DNA from: Thermoplasmata archaeon
GTDB taxonomy: Archaea > Thermoplasmatota > Thermoplasmata > Halarchaeoplasmatales > Halarchaeoplasmataceae
Length of the DNA: 37,578 nucleotides
NCBI GenBank assembly: GCA_003551675.1
Contig: PUNG01000138.1
Location: 1 to 37,578, forward strand
Reading direction: 5' to 3'
Both the position numbers and the translations under genes were made by a program. The notes under the pieces are model-generated. The model was not told the DNA's origin. It made no database searches and saw nothing but the letters and a program-made list of their open reading frames with translations. This document shows, in pieces, positions 27,465-37,578 of this stretch (the stretch's first letter is position 1; the number at the start of each line of letters is the position of its first letter).

Positions 27465-28493
27465 TCACTTAGCTACCTCGAGATCGAACTCGATCTCACC
27501 GGCAAAGTGGCATTTTGCGATATGTTCCTTCCCTACCTCTTTACCCACTGGTTTCTTATTCCTGCATATCTTTTTCGAATGAGGACATCGCGGATGAAAT
27601 CTACATCCCTTCGGTATATTTACAGCAGATGGTATCTCTCCCTTTATCGGTACTTTTTTGACGCCTCTACCTCTTTCAGGATCAGGTTCTGGCACAGCAA
27701 CAAGCAATGCTTGGGTATAAGGATGTGAGGGATTGTCTAAAACATCACCCACTTTTCCTTTCTCGACCATGTCTCCTAGGTACATGACCCCTATGTAATC
27801 CGTGAAAAAACGAGTCGTAGAGATATCATGCGTTATGTAAAAGTAAGTGATATCTTCCTTATCTATGAGGTCCTTCATGAGGTTCAATACTTCCGCCCTC
27901 ACAGAAACGTCGAGCATAGACACCGGTTCGTCTGCGACTATGAAATCTGGGTTGAGTATCATCGCTCTAGCAAGAGATATCCTTTGTTTTTGACCACCTG
28001 AAAGCATGTGAGGATACCTTCTTAAAAACTTTTCAGGGGGAGTCAATCGTACCTCCTCCATGGCCTCATATATCATATCATCTCTTTCATCTCTGCTGTC
28101 ACCGATGCCATGTATCATTAAAGGTTCTTCCAAGATGGTGCGGATCCTGTGCCTTGGATCCAAAGCAGAAAACGGATCCTGGTATATCATCTGAGTTTGC
28201 CGTCTGTAAGCCTTTATCTGCTGTTTGTTAGATAGTTCTGTTATGTCCTTTCCTTTCATATACATGCGTCCGTCAGTAGGATCCAATAGGCGCATCATGA
28301 GTTTACCCACAGTTGTTTTACCACAACCAGATTCGCCGACTGCAGAAAAGTTCTGCTTCCAATAGATGTCAAAGTCTATGCCGTCGACCGCCTTCACTTT
28401 TTGTTTTTCCTCTCCTCTGAGTTTCTGTAAAAAACCCTGTGTGATATCAAAGTGTTTAGTCAAGTTTCTCGCTTTAAATAATGGTTTAGCCAT
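27465..28493 (-). CDS. dppF: Dipeptide/oligopeptide ABC transporter ATP-binding protein (DppF type)
   Basis: A 342-residue ABC ATPase: Walker A GESGCGKTTVGKLM, signature LSGGQKQRISLARAMIL, Walker B DFIVADEPVSMLD, H-loop YITHDIST. The C-terminal oligopeptide-transporter domain contains a Cys cluster, C-x5-C-x6-C (GCRFHPRCPHSKKIC) plus a later Cys in KCHFAGE, as in Opp/Dpp ATPases that bind a [4Fe-4S] cluster. It should power peptide import together with DppD, acting on the cytoplasmic face of DppB/DppC. It is last in the operon, 6 bases after dppD, and is followed by a T-rich stretch on its strand that could end transcription. Confidence 0.92.
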   Translation of the reverse strand: MAKPLFKARNLTKHFDITQGFLQKLRGEEKQKVKAVDGIDFDIYWKQNFSAVGESGCGKTTVGKLMMRLLDPTDGRMYMKGKDITELSNKQQIKAYRRQTQMIYQDPFSALDPRHRIRTILEEPLMIHGIGDSRDERDDMIYEAMEEVRLTPPEKFLRRYPHMLSGGQKQRISLARAMILNPDFIVADEPVSMLDVSVRAEVLNLMKDLIDKEDITYFYITHDISTTRFFTDYIGVMYLGDMVEKGKVGDVLDNPSHPYTQALLVAVPEPDPERGRGVKKVPIKGEIPSAVNIPKGCRFHPRCPHSKKICRNKKPVGKEVGKEHIAKCHFAGEIEFDLEVAK

Positions 28494-28499
28494 GGTTTT

Positions 28500-29582
28500 C
28501 TACTCCTCCTCTGTTACAACTTCTTCTTCACCTAGTTCGCCTTCATAGGCCTCAGAAGCGCTTTCATCCTCATAAGCGGTCTCATATTCGGCTTCTTCAC
28601 TTTCCGCTATCTCTTTGTCCTCACTGAACAGATGACACTTAACTTTTACACCGTCTATGTTGTATATCTCAGGTTCCAACTCTCTACATACCTCCATGGC
28701 CTTGTGACACCTCGGATGAAATCTACATCCAGTAGGAGGATTGACCAAATTCGGAGGAACGCCTGGGATGTATTCTAGGCGTTCTATATCAGTACGGATG
28801 TCCGGGATCGCCGCTATCAGCTTTTCAGTGTAAGGATGTTTTGGATCTTTGTAGATCTGTTTTGCAGAACCGAATTCTACTATCCAACCCGCGTACATTA
28901 TTGCAAGGTTGTCAGAAACCTCTGCCAGTATACTGAGATCGTGAGTGATGAATATCATGGAGATATCTAACTCTCTTCTGAGTCGCTTGAGATCGTTCAT
29001 TATCCTAGCCTCTACAACCACGTCTAGCGCAGTCGTGGGCTCATCAAGTATGACCAAGTCCGGCTCTAAGAGAAGAGCAGTAGCGATTATCACTCTCTGT
29101 TTCTGACCTCCGCTGAGCTCGTGTGGGTACCTATCGAATATACCTCCTTCGAGATTTACCAGTTCAAGATACTTCTCACAGATAGCCCTTGCTTTTTTAC
29201 CCTCGATACCTTTATGATACTTCAGGGGTTCCACCATCTGATGACCGACCGTGTAAACAGGAGTCATTATGTCCATGGCTCCCTGGAAAACCATGGATAC
29301 TTTTTTCCAGCGTATCTTTTTTCGGGACTGTTTCTCATTCAGATCAGTGACCTCGATACCATCCAAGTTTATCGAACCATTTACGATCTGACCAGGAGGT
29401 GGAACCAAATTTAGCAAGGAGAATGCAAGAGTACTCTTTCCACATCCTGATTCTCCTGCCACACCTATGGATTCTCCTTTGTGAAGTACAAATGATGCAT
29501 CATCAAGTGCCTGAACTTCTCCATCACCTGTTAAATAATGCGTAGACAATTCATCGACCTTTAAGACTGCTTTTCCAACCAT
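28500..29582 (-). CDS. dppD: Dipeptide/oligopeptide ABC transporter ATP-binding protein (DppD type)
   Basis: A 360-residue ABC ATPase: Walker A GESGCGKSTLAFSLL, signature LSGGQKQRVIIATALLL, Walker B DLVILDEPTTALDV, H-loop FITHDLSIL. The C-terminal domain has the FeS-type Cys set GCRFHPRCHKAMEVC … KCHLF. The protein ends with an unusual acidic tail of about 40 residues (EIAESEEAEYETAYEDES and on) not found in bacterial DppD, perhaps a salt adaptation. The ribosome site GGTG is formed by the end of the permease gene (AGG TGA). The second of two ATGs, at 29582, has the 5-base spacing seen elsewhere in the window. Confidence 0.92.
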   Translation of the reverse strand: MVGKAVLKVDELSTHYLTGDGEVQALDDASFVLHKGESIGVAGESGCGKSTLAFSLLNLVPPPGQIVNGSINLDGIEVTDLNEKQSRKKIRWKKVSMVFQGAMDIMTPVYTVGHQMVEPLKYHKGIEGKKARAICEKYLELVNLEGGIFDRYPHELSGGQKQRVIIATALLLEPDLVILDEPTTALDVVVEARIMNDLKRLRRELDISMIFITHDLSILAEVSDNLAIMYAGWIVEFGSAKQIYKDPKHPYTEKLIAAIPDIRTDIERLEYIPGVPPNLVNPPTGCRFHPRCHKAMEVCRELEPEIYNIDGVKVKCHLFSEDKEIAESEEAEYETAYEDESASEAYEGELGEEEVVTEEE

Positions 29583-29586
29583 CATT

Positions 29587-32500
29587 TCACCTTTGCTTCA
29601 TCTTAGGATTGATAACTCTCTCTATAGCCATTCCTGTGGATATGAATCCAAAGCCCACAAGGACCATACCTACACCTGGGAAGAGTACCCAAAACCATGA
29701 TTCCTCCCAGTTCATAACGGCTCCACTGGATTGTGCGTCTTCTAATATCGTACCCCAAGTAACGATAGTAGGATCACCTAGCCCGAGTATGTGCATACCC
29801 GCTTCAGCCATGATCACAACCGGAACGAGTAGTGCAGCCTGAGCTATAGAATAAGGCAGTATCTGAGGTATCATATGTTTGAAGATTATTCGTGCGGAGC
29901 CTGAGCCTAGAGATTCCGAAGCTTCTATATAGGTATCTTTAGCAACTTGTAATCCTCTGGCTCTTATAACTCTTGCAGCACCACGCCACATCACTAATGC
30001 ATAGATCAGCACGAATATATTGATACTCCTGCTCCAGAACCTCAATACGATGATAAGGATCGGTAATACGGGTATACCCATCAATATCTCATTTATCCTA
30101 GACATGAACTCATCTACCCATCCGCCGTAATAGGCGCTGGTCATACCGAAGCTAGTAGAGAAGAATATAGTCGTTAGGGCAACAACGCCGCCTGCATACA
30201 GACCATATCTAGCACCCCAGATCCAACCCTGCCACAGGTCTCGCCTGCTATTGTCAGTTCCAAATACGCCAAATACAGCCCCCGAGAACGTGGTCTCGGC
30301 TTCTTCGAACTCCACACCTATACCGTCAACACGGATAGTAACATTGTATTCTCCTTTCAACGGGTCGCCTTCCTCAAGCCAATTCTCGTTCCGTTGGCCG
30401 AATAAGATCTGAGTTGGATGGACATCTTCCTGTGAAGGGAACTCTCTTACATCTGTATTCCTTCTCAGCCATCTCCTAGATTGCTCATACAAATTCTCTC
30501 TTATACTTCCCCTTCTAACCACCGTTATCGTTTCGTGGAAATCACCAACCCTGTCACCTCTATCTATATCTTCTAGTACAAGAGTATCTTCGGGTGTGGC
30601 TGTGAGCGTTACCTCGGCTCCTTCACTGTATTCAAGTCGGAACGGGCTTCTGTCGACTCTACCTTCACCGTGTGTACTCACATCAAGGGAGTAAGAGATA
30701 TCATCATCAAAAGTGGCTGTTACATCTTTGTCTTCATCCATCACGATGGTGATCTCTTCATCGGTACCTCGAAGGTCTCCGCTCCATCTATCGAACTGCC
30801 AACCTTCAGCAGCAACGGCATCCAATACTACTGTTTCACCTTTGTAGTAAGTCTCTTTCTCGGGCTCTATATCTACAGCGCCTTCACCTTCGATGTTCAC
30901 GTTGAGTTCATGTTCCACCGTGGTATCGACCCTCTTAAAGAACGCCCTTAGGTTCATCTCTTTATCCATCTCGACTGTTATCTCCTCTTCGAACTGCTCT
31001 CCTTCGGGATAATCTCCTATCCAATGGCTGAATTCCCAATCATCTAATTCAAAGAAGTTCAGATCTCCTTCATCTGCATCCTCTTCTATCCTGTATTCCT
31101 TTTCACCTTCTACCAAGACCCACCATTCACCGTTCGATATGGCTATCTCCGCATCATCTTCGAGTGCATGACCCTGGACCTCAAAGGCGATCGATAATTC
31201 TTCAGCGACCGGGCCTTCTTCAAGATGCTCTTCGTATAATTCCATGCTCAGATCGAATACATTCTCCCCTGGTTTCGCCAACAGAGTTACTTCATCCCCT
31301 CTCTCATAATTGAATTGTGAAGGATGTGTTTCGATGGTCCCATTTCCCGATGTACTAGTCCTTAAGTTGTATCTCTCTTCTCCAAAATGGGCCCTTAGCT
31401 CCTTGTCACTATCCATGGTTATGGTTATCTCGTCTTCGGGACCTTCATAATCTCCCGTCCAACCGACGAACTCAAACGGCTCAGTAGGCCGTTGAACCTC
31501 TATACGCCTGTGCCTATATCTATCAGCATAACCAGAATATTCCATGAAAAGCTCCAACGGTACCCTATCAGCCTGCATATCATGTACAAAAGAGATCTCG
31601 TAACCTCTTATATCTCCTGCGGGTGCGACCACGTCTTCATATAATAATCTCTCATCAAGTTCATCTGTCAAATACAACGATATGGTACGTTCTTCTCTTT
31701 CTTCGTTCAGTACCTCGACATTTACCCTGATTATATCTCCAAGATATACCTCGTCCTCGTCAACAATGAGTTTGGCTTCTAGATCATCCTCTTCTTCTTG
31801 CTGCAACTCAAGTTCGGCCTCATAGACTGTTTGTTCGTCGGAAGTATGCATCGCTAGTGTCTCTTCTTCCTCTTCTTCCTCTTCTTCAAAAGTTATAGAG
31901 GCTCTCTCAGGACCCAAAATGAAATGATACGTGCCTTCCTCTGTAAATTCATGGGTGTACTCTATAGCCTTCATATCTCCTGGTTGTATCGTCCATTCTT
32001 CTTCAGCCACCCTAATACCTTCATCATCCTCGATCCTCAACCTTATGGTCCTTTCTTCCTCTCTGTGTGTATTTCTGACCTCGGCTTCCATGCTCCCCAT
32101 GAGAGCCGCGGTCTCTTCCACAGAGAATTCATCTACTACCACGTCGTCGCCCACTCCTACCGTGACCACTTGGGTTTGATCTCCGAGCCTTATAGTGTAT
32201 ACACCATCCAACTCAAAGGTGTGTTCGGCAACTATACTTTCTACCTGTCCTGGGGCTAATTCCCATTCGTAATCGACGGGTTCACCAGGTATCTCCAGTT
32301 CGATGGTCCTGTTTTCATCCTCTTCACCACCTATATGAGCTATATCTGCAGTTATATCGACTTCTAGTGGTGCGGTCCCATCAACAGGACTCACCGCGAA
32401 ATTGGAAACCTCTATATTTTCTACTCCCGGAGGTCTACTAACCTTGATTCTGTGTGATGCTGGTCCTAGTTCCTGATGTCCTAATACATTATCGCCGTGC

Positions 32501-34311
32501 CTCACTTCGATGGTGTTTGAACCCCACGTATCCGATACATCTTCTACACTCCCATCCACCAAAAAGCGTACCTGTTGTATCTCCGCCTCAGCACCCGTAT
32601 TCGTTACTCTGTATTCAACAACGACATCTTCGCCTTCGGCTACTTGTTTATCATATCCCGTGATCATCACACTGAACAGTCTATCATCCGATACGGTCAC
32701 AGTGACTTCGTCTTCGGAGTCCTCGCTGGTAACACCAAATACATAGTCGCCTGCATCATCTCTCTCAGTTTGCCAAGTAAACTCGCCTTGGTATTCCTCT
32801 CCACCGGCGAGAGTGACCTCCTCGGTTTCAACTACATCTTGGTCTACGGTCAACTCGATCTCTTGTGTCACCTCCAATTCCCCCTCATTCGTTACACTGT
32901 ACTTGATCATAGCTTCATCGTATTCGTAGATGATCTCGTCAAAATCGATCACCTCGACCTGGAAAAAGGGCTCATCTAAAACAAAGACTGTTACTTCGTC
33001 AAGATCATCGTCACTTCGAACCGAAAGATTGTATTCTCCTAACTCTTCTGTAACCCAATTGAACTCACCTTCAAAATTTTCTCCACCTTCAAGTTCTACC
33101 TCTTCGCTATCAACGAGTTCCTCATCAACGTAGAACTCTAAATCTTGGGTATCAAGATCATCACCTGTATTGTCCACAGAATATTCAACGGTAACTTCTT
33201 CTCCTTCACCTACTTCCTCATCAAAATCAACTATATCTACACTGAAGATACCTCTCTCTATCACGTAGATATTGATCTCGTCATGACCTCTTTCACTGTT
33301 CACTGAAAGGGTCCGATCGCCGTGACCTTCTGCCGTCCAAGTGAAATTGCCCTCATATTCTTCCTCCTCCTCAAGTTCTACGTTACTTTCTGTATCTACC
33401 AGATCATCATCTACGTAAAATTCTATATCCTGTGTGTCAGCCTCGCCGCCTGTATTCTCTACGACATACTCAACCGTAAGAGACTCGTCTTCTACCAGTC
33501 TATGGCCTTCCAAAGGCTCTTCGATCTCAACATCAAAGTAAGCTCCTTCTTCTACATTTATGGTGAACTCATCGTGATCATCCCTGCTGTGCACAGAGAG
33601 TTCACGTTCGCCTGGTTCTTCTGCCTCCCAAACGAGCTCAGTCTCTACTATCTCGTCCTGTTCTAGAGTTACTTCTTGGGAGCGTGCCATCTCACCATCT
33701 GCCCGCAATTCTATCATCTGAGTACCTGTTGCTACACCTGTATTTTCTACGGTGAATTCAACCACCACCGGTTCGCCCTCTATCACGTTAAGGCCATCTT
33801 CCGGTGCGGTTATCTCTATTTCAAAATTTGCAGGTTCTAACACAGTGACGGAAACTTCACGCTCATGATCTGCACTAGCAACTTCTAGATCATGGATACC
33901 TTCATCACCTTCTTCAGTCCACCATATAAATTCCCCTTCATATACATCTCCTTCACCTAGTGGAGGAGGATCATCAAACAACACATCATAACTAAATTCC
34001 AATGCTCCCGGTTCCTCATAGGACCAATCGCTCACCTGTGTCTCCCCGTCCCAGTCGACTACAGTATGCCTTGCATAATCCTCTCTAGTGATCCAATCGA
34101 GCCATACGGGAGGAGCGCTCCGAGGATTAGACTGCCACCTTCTCGCGGCCGGACTCCATTCATCTGCAACACCTGGTGCCATATAGGGTGCAAGCAGCCC
34201 CAACACCACCATGATGGTTATGAGCGATACTCCTATCAAACCGATCTTGTGCTTCTTGAACTCTCCTAGGACTTCTTTTACGTCAGCTAGTAAATCTTCC
34301 CATGTGACCAT
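29587..34311 (-). CDS. dppC: Giant DppC-type ABC permease with ~1300-residue extracellular insertion
   Basis: 1574 residues against about 300 for typical DppC. TM1 is at about 23-46 (IGLIGVSLITIMVVLGLLAP). From residue 1350 a complete permease core follows (FGTDNSRRDLWQGWIWGAR), with the ATPase-coupling EAA loop EASESLGSGSARIIFKHMIP and five TM helices. Between them, outside the membrane: about five CARDB-like repeats of roughly 95 residues (162-590), further Ig-like modules (630-940), InlB-B-like repeats of the GWxFDRWSGD type (946-1245), and the family's own PTQILFGxxxE … DPLKGEY domain (about 1262-1345). An E9 run occurs at about 809-817. ATG 34311 follows GGTG by 6 bases. It pairs with DppB to form the peptide channel. 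The frame is unbroken, so the length is genuine unless assembly is wrong. Confidence 0.88.
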   Translation of the reverse strand: MVTWEDLLADVKEVLGEFKKHKIGLIGVSLITIMVVLGLLAPYMAPGVADEWSPAARRWQSNPRSAPPVWLDWITREDYARHTVVDWDGETQVSDWSYEEPGALEFSYDVLFDDPPPLGEGDVYEGEFIWWTEEGDEGIHDLEVASADHEREVSVTVLEPANFEIEITAPEDGLNVIEGEPVVVEFTVENTGVATGTQMIELRADGEMARSQEVTLEQDEIVETELVWEAEEPGERELSVHSRDDHDEFTINVEEGAYFDVEIEEPLEGHRLVEDESLTVEYVVENTGGEADTQDIEFYVDDDLVDTESNVELEEEEEYEGNFTWTAEGHGDRTLSVNSERGHDEINIYVIERGIFSVDIVDFDEEVGEGEEVTVEYSVDNTGDDLDTQDLEFYVDEELVDSEEVELEGGENFEGEFNWVTEELGEYNLSVRSDDDLDEVTVFVLDEPFFQVEVIDFDEIIYEYDEAMIKYSVTNEGELEVTQEIELTVDQDVVETEEVTLAGGEEYQGEFTWQTERDDAGDYVFGVTSEDSEDEVTVTVSDDRLFSVMITGYDKQVAEGEDVVVEYRVTNTGAEAEIQQVRFLVDGSVEDVSDTWGSNTIEVRHGDNVLGHQELGPASHRIKVSRPPGVENIEVSNFAVSPVDGTAPLEVDITADIAHIGGEEDENRTIELEIPGEPVDYEWELAPGQVESIVAEHTFELDGVYTIRLGDQTQVVTVGVGDDVVVDEFSVEETAALMGSMEAEVRNTHREEERTIRLRIEDDEGIRVAEEEWTIQPGDMKAIEYTHEFTEEGTYHFILGPERASITFEEEEEEEEETLAMHTSDEQTVYEAELELQQEEEDDLEAKLIVDEDEVYLGDIIRVNVEVLNEEREERTISLYLTDELDERLLYEDVVAPAGDIRGYEISFVHDMQADRVPLELFMEYSGYADRYRHRRIEVQRPTEPFEFVGWTGDYEGPEDEITITMDSDKELRAHFGEERYNLRTSTSGNGTIETHPSQFNYERGDEVTLLAKPGENVFDLSMELYEEHLEEGPVAEELSIAFEVQGHALEDDAEIAISNGEWWVLVEGEKEYRIEEDADEGDLNFFELDDWEFSHWIGDYPEGEQFEEEITVEMDKEMNLRAFFKRVDTTVEHELNVNIEGEGAVDIEPEKETYYKGETVVLDAVAAEGWQFDRWSGDLRGTDEEITIVMDEDKDVTATFDDDISYSLDVSTHGEGRVDRSPFRLEYSEGAEVTLTATPEDTLVLEDIDRGDRVGDFHETITVVRRGSIRENLYEQSRRWLRRNTDVREFPSQEDVHPTQILFGQRNENWLEEGDPLKGEYNVTIRVDGIGVEFEEAETTFSGAVFGVFGTDNSRRDLWQGWIWGARYGLYAGGVVALTTIFFSTSFGMTSAYYGGWVDEFMSRINEILMGIPVLPILIIVLRFWSRSINIFVLIYALVMWRGAARVIRARGLQVAKDTYIEASESLGSGSARIIFKHMIPQILPYSIAQAALLVPVVIMAEAGMHILGLGDPTIVTWGTILEDAQSSGAVMNWEESWFWVLFPGVGMVLVGFGFISTGMAIERVINPKMKQR
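32689..33828 (-). repeat. Four full tandem CARDB-like repeats coding within dppC
   Basis: Residues 162-541 of the permease: copies near 162-254, 258-351, 355-445 and 449-541, each about 95 residues. Shared landmarks are VxVEYxVxNTG, a D/E-rich strand with FYVDxxLVD, EEYEGxFxW and a serine-aspartate strand (LSVxSxxxxDEV). A half copy precedes them (about 100-160) and a partial one follows (545-590). Confidence 0.75.
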
Positions 34312-34354
34312 TTTATACACCTTTGATTTTTATCATTTGTTGTTGTAATCTTCT

Positions 34355-35416
34355 CTAGCCTGTTTTCTTTTCTGCACCTACTTCTACCCGCGGATCTAGA
34401 TATCCATATATCAGATCTGCTATGTAATATCCAAAGATATACAGGAAAGCAGTTATGAAAGATATACCTAATATCACAGGTACGTCAGTATATGTAAATA
34501 TAGCCAATCTCAATAAGTAGCCCATCCCAGGCCATGCAAATATGATCTCCGATATCATCGCTCCTGCAACAGACATCAGAAGAGCCATGATGGCGGAGGT
34601 AACAACAGGAGGTGCCGCCGTCTTAAGGGTATGTCCGTAGATAACTTTCCTTTCAGGTACGCCTTTAGCCCTTGCAGCCATTATATAATCGTCTTGGAGG
34701 ATGCCAGTTACTAGGTTCCTCGTGACCCACGCATTTCCTCCGAACAGGACGAAAACTATCGTAGCCAAAGGAAGCGCCATCTTCCAAAGTAACTCCCTTA
34801 AAAATGTACTATAACCCAAAGCACTTGCACTCGGGAACGTAGGGTCCGGACTGGGGAACCACCTAAGTTCATAAACGAAAACTAGCAAAGCGAGCATACC
34901 TACCCACCACATGGGCATCGAAGACGCCGTCATCCCGAAAAGGGATAAAAATTTATCCAATCTTGATCCTGCCCTTTGAGCCGCCTTCAGACCTACAGCT
35001 ATACCTAATGCAGTATATATCACCGCTGCAGTTGTAAATAATAGGATTGTTCTAGGTAAATAATCCATGATGATAGCAGATACCTCACTAGAGCCTTCTC
35101 CACAGGTCATATCTTGTGCTCTACCAAAATCAAATGTCAAAACATCGTAAGCCGAATAAAAAACTCTTTGCCATCTAGGAAGGTGTAAATTATACCGCTC
35201 TCTTAGTTCTTCGGTCCTATTCTCACGATAACTACGAACCTCTTCAGGAGACCCTTCAAACTCCTGCAACTCCGCTCTCACGATCTGTGTGACACTTGTT
35301 TCCAGCTCACGCTCCGCCATAGTACTGAATGCGGCGGACAAGATAAAAACAACTATTATAAGTACTAGAAACATATTGAAAGTCCTTAATGCGAAATATT
35401 TCCACGACGCAGGCAT
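34355..35416 (-). CDS. dppB: Dipeptide/oligopeptide ABC transporter permease (DppB type)
   Basis: 353 residues, normal DppB length. TM1 (MFLVLIIVVFILSAAFSTM), a periplasm-facing loop of about 85 residues, then five TMs with the EAA loop MAARAKGVPERKVIYGHTLK that docks the ATPases, and the final GMGYLLRLAIFTYTDVPVILG region. No large insertion, in contrast to its partner DppC. GGAGG lies 18 bases before the ATG, further than usual, and an in-frame TAG upstream excludes a longer start. A TATA-like TTTATATT some 30 bases before the ATG may give an internal promoter, so dppBCDF could be transcribed apart from the binding protein. Confidence 0.92.
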   Translation of the reverse strand: MPASWKYFALRTFNMFLVLIIVVFILSAAFSTMAERELETSVTQIVRAELQEFEGSPEEVRSYRENRTEELRERYNLHLPRWQRVFYSAYDVLTFDFGRAQDMTCGEGSSEVSAIIMDYLPRTILLFTTAAVIYTALGIAVGLKAAQRAGSRLDKFLSLFGMTASSMPMWWVGMLALLVFVYELRWFPSPDPTFPSASALGYSTFLRELLWKMALPLATIVFVLFGGNAWVTRNLVTGILQDDYIMAARAKGVPERKVIYGHTLKTAAPPVVTSAIMALLMSVAGAMISEIIFAWPGMGYLLRLAIFTYTDVPVILGISFITAFLYIFGYYIADLIYGYLDPRVEVGAEKKTG

Positions 35417-35589: not shown

Positions 35590-37578
35590 TTACTGTTTCT
35601 TCTTGTAGTAGATCGCCACAGCCATGCAGGCTGCTATCGCCAACAGTACCAATGTAAATCCAGGGGTTACTTCTTCTTCTTCGAAGTGAGCGATCAGATC
35701 CATGTCTTCCTCTATTTCAAAAGTTATCTCTGACTCTTCTTCGTTCCAATCTTCCGGAAGTCCTTCCCACTCATCGAACTCCCAGTCGTCTGCTGGATTC
35801 GCTGTCAATCGGATCTCCGTTCCTTCTGGTACAGGATCATCTTCCCAGAATTCTTCGATCGGGGATTCATCTATCTCATGCCATTCTCCTTCAAAATACA
35901 CTTCGACCGTTACGTTGCCTTCTCCTTCGATGTCTATGGTGAGATAGTAGTATTCCAATTCCTCTTCGAAGACCGCTGTCAGATTCTTGTCTTCATCCAT
36001 GGTTATGGTTATCTCGTCTTCAAATCCCTCGTGATCTCCAGTCCACTCAATAAAAGTCCATCCTTCGTCTGGTACCGCCGTTAAAGTCACTTCAGTTCCT
36101 TCTTCGTATTCTTCTTCATCAGGATCGAGTTCGACCTCTCCTTCTCCCTCGATGTTTACCGTCAAGTCAAAGAGACCCAATACTGTGATCGTCTCTTGAA
36201 GTACCGTATTGTCTGCTTCGTCCCGTACCTCTACATCGAACTCACCAGACTCTTCGAAAACGTATTCGTATGCAAAGGTATGCTCTCCTTCGCCATCTAG
36301 CTCTTCGACGTGTTCTTCTTCTCCACCGATGTATAGATGTGCCGTAGTGTCCTCGACGTAGCTTTCCACAACGGCTTCGATAGTTACTGTCTCTCCTGTA
36401 TTCGTTTCCTCAGGCACGGTCAATTCAGTACCTGTGATAAAGAGTTCATCTACTACTTCTACCTTTGTTTCAAGTTCTCCGAACGTGACCGTATAAGTTC
36501 CAACTGTTTCAAAGGTATATTCTTCTCTAGTGGAATAGGTTCGGCCTACTTCTACTTCGTATTCACCTATGACTTCACTGTCCACTTTCAATTCGATCTC
36601 TCCGTCTAAGTTACCAATGTTTTCAGCCGCCACGTCGATGACCGCATCTAAAGGCGCTTCTCCGATGATAGGATCAACATCAAGTGTATGAGGTATGATC
36701 GATGCACCAGTCACAGTAACTTGGCCAAGTTCATCTACGAACCTATCTTCAGCATCCCAAAGTTGTATGATGAACTCACCAGCGATGTCGTAAGTATGAT
36801 CGTAATCTATGTTTATGGTTTCACCAGCAGGTACGTTCTCCTCGTAGATCATCTCAGCTTCGCCCATCTCGTCTATCAGGACTATCTGCGCCGTGTCGTC
36901 TTCTTCGCCATCGTTCTCAAACTCCACCTGTATGTTGCCTTGTCCACCGATATCGATTTCTTCGTCTATAGAGAATTCGATGACATTTAGAGCAACATCA
37001 GGATCATACACGATAACGGTAGAGTCGATCGTGGTAAACACAGGATCATCTTCGCCGCGTGCTTCTAACTGCAGCGAGTAGTGACCTCCTCTAACTACAC
37101 CGTCGGTCGGTACAGTCGCCTCGAATATACTGTAGGTGTCCTCTTCGATGATAGTTATGTCTTCTTCACGTACCTCTTCTAGTATCTCGCCGCCTAGGTC
37201 TCGTCTCAGTGTAAATCTCCACTCTTCCATGTTGTCCTCTGTCAAAGGCCCTTGGTCTACAACAGGATACAACGAAGCGTAATGCCCATCTCCTTCAGCC
37301 TCTATGGGATCCCCAAGAGCAACTTCCGAGTCTACTACCTCTAGGGAATCAAGCCGTATCTCTGAGATGTCGAATTGCTCCGCCCAGTAACCGTATTCGA
37401 ACTCATAACCGTCTACTTCTTCTCCTTCGAATGGGTAACCGTAATCATCCCATCTCTCTAGGACCATGGAGTGATCGTCCGTATCATAATCCTCTATGTA
37501 GAACGGACCTACGCCTATGAACGTGTGCTCGTACTCATCTATGAAGTCTAGAAGACTCTCTAAAGTAGCTTCGACTTC
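35590..37578 (-). CDS. dppA: Peptide ABC transporter substrate-binding protein, C-terminal part, with Ig and InlB-B-like modules and PGF-type anchor
   Basis: The frame is open to the right edge, so the start lies outside; 662 residues are visible. The first 65 (TFIGVGPFYIEDYDTDDHS, then LERWDDYGYPFEG) match the C-terminal end of family 5 solute-binding proteins (…GxGPFYL…, RxxxYPF). Next come about four Ig/CARDB-like modules (for example IGGQGNIQVEFENDGEEDDT, AGEFIIQLWDAEDRF, VGTYTVTFGELETKVEV), then InlB-B-like repeats (GWTFIEWTGDHEGFEDEITI; WEFDEWEGLPED). The C-terminus is TPGFTLVLLAIAACMAVAIY plus KKKQ, a PGF-CTERM-like anchor. It captures peptides outside the cell for DppBCDF. Confidence 0.85.
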   Translation of the reverse strand, partial: EVEATLESLLDFIDEYEHTFIGVGPFYIEDYDTDDHSMVLERWDDYGYPFEGEEVDGYEFEYGYWAEQFDISEIRLDSLEVVDSEVALGDPIEAEGDGHYASLYPVVDQGPLTEDNMEEWRFTLRRDLGGEILEEVREEDITIIEEDTYSIFEATVPTDGVVRGGHYSLQLEARGEDDPVFTTIDSTVIVYDPDVALNVIEFSIDEEIDIGGQGNIQVEFENDGEEDDTAQIVLIDEMGEAEMIYEENVPAGETINIDYDHTYDIAGEFIIQLWDAEDRFVDELGQVTVTGASIIPHTLDVDPIIGEAPLDAVIDVAAENIGNLDGEIELKVDSEVIGEYEVEVGRTYSTREEYTFETVGTYTVTFGELETKVEVVDELFITGTELTVPEETNTGETVTIEAVVESYVEDTTAHLYIGGEEEHVEELDGEGEHTFAYEYVFEESGEFDVEVRDEADNTVLQETITVLGLFDLTVNIEGEGEVELDPDEEEYEEGTEVTLTAVPDEGWTFIEWTGDHEGFEDEITITMDEDKNLTAVFEEELEYYYLTIDIEGEGNVTVEVYFEGEWHEIDESPIEEFWEDDPVPEGTEIRLTANPADDWEFDEWEGLPEDWNEEESEITFEIEEDMDLIAHFEEEEVTPGFTLVLLAIAACMAVAIYYKKKQ

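Follow-up and report, generated by a model that had tools for sequence, protein, structure and literature searches.

The DNA studied here (the window, 37,578 nucleotides in full length) is contig 150 of a MAG of 2.29 Mb in 158 contigs. The host is a haloalkaliphilic archaeon of the Thermoplasmatota, and named collections contain near relatives of it among Thermoplasmata MAGs recovered from sediments of soda lakes and from the Great Salt Lake, including 'Candidatus Haladaptatiplasma halalkaliphilum'. On the minus strand, on which all features given below lie, five genes are arranged in the order SBP-DppB-DppC-DppD-DppF, where SBP is a substrate-binding protein. This is the gene order of an operon for an importer with an OppC/DppC subunit, and it is syntenic in relatives. 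By Pfam and NCBIfam, a DppB-type permease of 353 aa (34355-35416) precedes DppC, which is followed by the ATPases of DppD type (28500-29585) and DppF type (27465-28493). The SBP is represented by its C-terminal 662 aa (35590-37578); its 5′ end is lost at the contig end and no frameshift is involved. Complete orthologous SBPs occupy the equivalent place in relatives, with lengths of, for example, 1,152, 1,212 and 1,725 aa, and SBP_bac_5 was found in two of the three family-member SBPs scanned. The part in the window contains Ig/CARDB-like and two InlB-B modules, followed by a PGF-type C-terminal transmembrane (TM) anchor recognised by eye. At 35590-35700, as in the orthologous SBPs, the C-terminus shows a PGF motif followed by a TM helix and a tail of basic residues, which by eye resembles a PGF-CTERM sorting signal; an NCBIfam search of the SBP C-terminus gave no match for such a signal.

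The DppC-type gene (29587-34320) is a single frame of 1,577 codons which joins TM1 to the core of TM2-TM6 without interruption, as the preliminary description of this DNA had claimed. Counted from a GTG at 34320 the product has 1,577 aa. The likely start is the ATG at 34311, in frame and three codons further on, which had been proposed before and which the aligned relatives L023 (N-terminus MVHWDD) and L021 (MYKMVRWED) favour. TM1 with OppC_N, at residues 25-49 (34174-34248), is separated by about 1,300 residues from TM2; the TM2-TM6 core with its EAA-type coupling loop comprises residues 1352-1577 (29590-30267). Pfam places OppC_N at residues 15-57 and BPD_transp_1 at residues 1390-1575. PF00528 lies above its cut-off (E 2e-21), and PF12911 (E 8e-5) reaches 22.9 bits against a cut-off of 23.9, which is exceeded by the orthologues. 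A BPD_transp_1 core together with an OppC_N TM segment is the signature of OppC/DppC subunits. The NCBIfam Opp4C equivalog was matched with 156.8 bits against a curated cut-off of 350, which makes the protein a relative rather than a member, and none of the NCBIfam permease equivalog cut-offs was reached. Judged by its sequence, the protein is a DppC-type membrane subunit of an SBP-dependent ABC importer of the oligopeptide family. A second OppC-like gene, encoding 320 aa, is present on contig 20 of the same genome, so that the giant loop is dispensable for some such importers of the cell.

The segment between TM1 and TM2 is built around a conserved extracellular domain of about 200 residues (190-220), which we call the base domain. 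It was delimited by aligning 24 minimal relatives and reaches from TM1 to the GTD motif that opens the TM core. The domain is present in Thermococcales, Desulfurococcales, Thermoplasmata and other archaea as well as in Spirochaetes, Thermotoga and Bacillota, with P, W, F, G and Y positions invariant across archaea and bacteria. AF2 predicts a compact beta domain with one long helix (mean pLDDT 82). Foldseek returned only weak jelly-roll-like matches (BMP prodomain, MAM, CBM) with TM-scores by query of at most 0.35, and because of these weak scores no homology to these folds is claimed. In the window DppC the base domain is broken at two points, after residue 93 and after residue 945. By alignment, its N-terminal part with the SAPPVWLDW motif covers residues 50-93 (34042-34173), its middle strands residues 906-945 (31486-31605) and its C-terminal part residues 1246-1351 (30268-30585).

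Insert A (32539-34041), which follows residue 93, is a CARDB array that has no counterpart in the closest orthologue, L021. It consists of a C-terminal half-unit, the units CARDB1-4 (residues 166-547) and an N-terminal half-unit (549-594), which makes five units. Three Ig/PKD/CARDB-like domains at about residues 596-930 (31531-32535) are common to the orthologues L021, L023 and L024. Insert B (30586-31485), after residue 945, is an InlB-B block recognised by Pfam Flg_new_2 and without counterpart in the orthologues. Here a 3′ half-unit (946-982) is followed by InlB-b (983-1131), which is interrupted by an element of about 70 residues, by the intact InlB-c (1137-1206) and by a 5′ half-unit (1208-1245), which adds up to three units. 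Both private arrays start and stop mid-unit at matching points of the unit, which means that whole numbers of units were gained; we infer that the half-units at the ends fold together. In the Pfam search CARDB was detected with E 1e-30 in three significant stretches and InlB-B/Flg_new_2 with E 6e-25, and a PKD match at residues 670-712 stayed below the threshold. The CARDB, Ig-like and InlB-B identities given in the preliminary description are borne out. Its placement of the whole module mass outside the membrane agrees with standard OppC topology: both DppB and DppC are six-TM proteins whose TM1-TM2 region faces outward (PMC12136057). In an AF2 model of residues 590-1577 the Ig-like domains are confident (pLDDT mostly 75-92) and the TM core is moderate; alignment depth is lacking at insert B, which mostly stays below 50, so its fold is not confirmed.

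In a MAG of 158 contigs in which InlB-B units recur, a gene of this kind could result from an assembly or binning chimera that fused DppC with a surface protein built of modules. Against this speaks the closest orthologue (L021/L061, genome G003, 791 aa): DppC residues 600-945 align with its residues 118-456 (49% identity) and residues 1247-1577 with 461-791 (82%), so that the middle as well as both ends of the protein run collinear with a DppC from another genome. The longest exact repeat within the gene has 13 nt and the longest word common with 359 kb of its own genome 27 nt; repeats able to confuse an assembly were not found in the gene, nor did GC and GC3 give any signal of a foreign stretch. 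Long-loop DppC frames also occur on the single-contig genomes G027 (818 aa) and G046 (729 aa). Given the collinear orthologue, the single-contig genomes and the lack of long repeats, we reject a chimera or misassembly, its probability being very small, and the absence of a join artefact assumed in the preliminary description was upheld. Protein homology along its whole length excludes chance as an explanation of the open stretch of 1,300 codons.

A supply of suitable modules exists in the genome itself (G000, 2.3 Mb), where CARDB gives 96 matches and InlB-B at least 150, spread over many contigs. Most of this very high load falls on large proteins that have a signal-like N-terminus, a C-terminal TM or both. 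In a sample of 55 module proteins, DppC and one MMPL transporter were the sole polytopic ones; most of the others, where complete, show an N-terminal TM resembling a signal, a C-terminal TM or both. DppC shares CARDB and InlB-B above the Pfam cut-offs with surface proteins; it has no signal peptide with C-terminal anchor and is a polytopic permease. At the DNA level the CARDB array is closest to other secreted proteins encoded in its own genome, and the single strong DNA match of the Ig block is the orthologous DppC. A copying of the InlB-B block from the adjoining SBP gene found no support, as other genes of the genome match equally well or better.

Complete DppC proteins in the family range from 469 to 1,577 aa, and orthologues differ by modules which enter the base domain at different points. 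The shortest complete ones have 469-496 aa; an orthologue of about 300 residues with the modules on a separate protein, named beforehand as the case that would speak against the stalk, was not found. In L062 and L063 of the same genus, InlB-B modules sit on the SBP and DppC is without modules. Of the 61 genomes searched, 51 contained a match, and by hand count 35 of these 51 encode a DppC-like frame of 600 aa or more. PQQ-type propellers occur in the DppC loop of the class members L038, L042, L040 and L052, and Kelch together with PQQ in L048. L052 is in addition a natural DppB-DppC fusion of 1,157 aa (L052:9042-12512, G026 contig 19) with the propeller in its DppC half. In L026, L027, L028 and L032 the loop contains seven or eight copies of a repeat of about 65 residues, in the same-genus L024 three; these repeats are related to the dispersed element described below, and their insertion points in the base domain differ from those of the window. 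In Desulfurococcales, L103 and L105 have a DppC of 735 aa with a long TM1-TM2 loop, which in L103 is without Pfam match and possibly another unrelated insertion. Family-like DppC was also seen in records titled Dojkabacteria or Bipolaricaulota (L063, L065, L067, L070-L072), with about 60% identity to the window core in L065, L067 and L070-L072 and 82% in L063, which suggests transfer or mis-binned contigs. The window DppC is an example, of unusual size, of a general pattern of which we found no earlier description; our literature search revealed no paper on module-bearing DppC or propeller-bearing permeases.

With the core profile, the DppC/OppC structures of E. coli and M. tuberculosis (8z1v, 8z21, 8wd9, 8j5q) were recovered from the PDB at E 1e-40 to 1e-52. 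They share the TM2-6 core, the EAA-type loop and the five-gene operon logic. However, with 287-302 aa and a short TM1-TM2 loop they are too short for the base domain and also lack modules. Opp4C-like DppC of Thermococcus, Treponema, Thermotoga and Bacillota (460-530 aa) have the base domain in common with the window DppC, but no CARDB, InlB-B or Ig modules were detected in those examined. In the Thermoplasmata L038, L042, L052 and L048, the TM1-TM2 loop of this type of permease likewise holds extra domains; these are propellers instead of CARDB/InlB-B, and the cores are about 31-36% identical where aligned (L038, L042, L048). As worded, the view that transport channels ordinarily lack such a stalk finds no support: an outer TM1-TM2 domain of about 200 residues is the norm in this DppC clade, class relatives bear beta-propellers in the loop, and MalF-P2, a large beta-containing extracytoplasmic permease loop that touches the SBP MalE, is a characterised precedent (PMC3150292). 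Like MalF-P2, the base domain is a big outer beta-containing loop of a permease subunit that is predicted to be folded. MalF-P2 differs in belonging to another subunit family, in its size (MalF residues 91-271, about 180 aa) and in having no accreted modules. Homology to MalF-P2 was not found and the structural position is another, the DppC loop being that between TM1 and TM2. No maltose-permease structure was among the core-profile matches at E ≤ 0.001, and the 50 Foldseek matches listed for the base domain likewise contained no chain of MalF.

The element that interrupts InlB-b (residues 1020-1093; 31042-31263) is dispersed. Its family typically starts with YLF.L or HLF.L and ends with L.IY; the median DNA identity among copies is 62%. 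It occurs in 15 of 16 genomes of the host family and is patchy across Thermoplasmatota: a class sample of 300 genomes had it in three from outside the family, and the phylum sample in two further families. In the MMPL host protein, the orthologue from G002 aligns on both sides of the segment and lacks the segment itself, which represents an empty site. An OppD-type ATPase of G009 contains two copies within its nucleotide-binding domain, between the Walker A and signature motifs, whereas DppD and DppF contain none. Two PQQ proteins bear the element inside a blade, and one copy lies in a CcmC-type protein. In the sole ribosomal protein L3 (uL3) gene found in G136, it is part of an insertion of about 90 residues with Pfam L3 on both flanks. 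Outside the window, copies were noted at L141, L142, L143, L156, L157, L184, L185, L200, L213 and L214. The alignments of host proteins and the domain context indicate that the element was inserted.

Short coding elements inserted in frame within unrelated genes are known from Rickettsia (PMC10969869), and palindromic coding repeats were reported in Wolbachia and in the archaeon Methanocaldococcus jannaschii (PMC2996958), so that elements of this kind have precedents. The likeness to the Rickettsia palindromic elements lies in the in-frame position within unrelated genes, here for an ABC ATPase, MMPL, PQQ proteins and uL3. The archaeal element has about 210 nt and is not palindromic. An assignment to the palindromic elements was rejected because inverted-repeat scores equal those of shuffles. 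Target-site duplication was rejected as well, since the flanks of 35 copies gave a mean of 4.26 against 4.12 in cross-pairings; one suggestive GGATAT pair flanks the MMPL site. For an intein it is too short and, by eye, lacks conserved terminal splice residues. No convincing match was obtained in Pfam, the PDB or viruses, the viral scan having used one copy and being sensitive to close relatives only. The chances appear evenly balanced that an undescribed-looking dispersed coding element, an archaeal non-palindromic counterpart of the Rickettsia elements, helped the loop to grow by landing in it and builds new protein parts in place. Ordinary domain shuffling may account for the dispersal.

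Which role the loop plays has to be weighed against this background. The stalk could make the transporter a surface adhesin or a receptor for large substrates, which would bind cells, the S-layer or polymers and feed the channel. CARDB, Ig-like and InlB-B modules are indeed typical of surface proteins in this genome, the adjoining SBP also bears InlB-B modules, and the propellers of class relatives could bind ligands. However, sister species differ in the type of module, and the DppC of L062 and L063, members of the same genus, has none at all, so no single binding function is conserved, and Pfam detected no catalytic or known ligand-binding domain in the window DppC. We consider such a role unproven and quite improbable. 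Neutral accretion at a permissive site of a module-rich genome would explain why sister species hold different modules at different points of one domain, why the 70-residue element is nested within an InlB-B unit and why the modules are abundant genome-wide, the added parts then having no selected function. Against neutrality stand the family members examined, whose DppC are free of stops and frameshifts, the strong acidity maintained all along the loop, and the recurrence of long loops in many families of the class; as a full account it seems rather doubtful.

We think it probable that this is an importer DppC whose conserved base domain docks the SBP and whose outward loop accretes surface modules. 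The base domain would dock or position the membrane-anchored SBP, as MalF-P2 does with MalE. This proposal is drawn from analogy and position, and confidence in direct docking by DppC is lowered by the SBP contact described in E. coli, which is the scoop of DppB and not DppC (PMC12136057). The remaining 1,100 or so residues are surface-protein modules that entered in frame at two sites of the base domain in the species' own lineage, with five CARDB units, three InlB-B units and one dispersed 70-residue element gained on top of three older Ig-like domains. They would be tolerated because the loop faces outward, and a permissive site accreting surface modules is the best reading of the loop. Spacing or surface contact is the likeliest use of the modules, if they are not neutral, and we expect the transport process as such to be ordinary.

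For the biology of these archaea, the TM1-TM2 loop of DppC emerges as a folded and conserved outer domain for which no Pfam model exists, and as a place where propellers, Kelch, CARDB, Ig and InlB-B modules are recurrently inserted. The full and empty sites of the dispersed element form a natural series for the spread of in-frame coding DNA through essential proteins. The importer itself offers a testable case of how archaea, which have no periplasm, connect their channels with binding proteins held on a tether.
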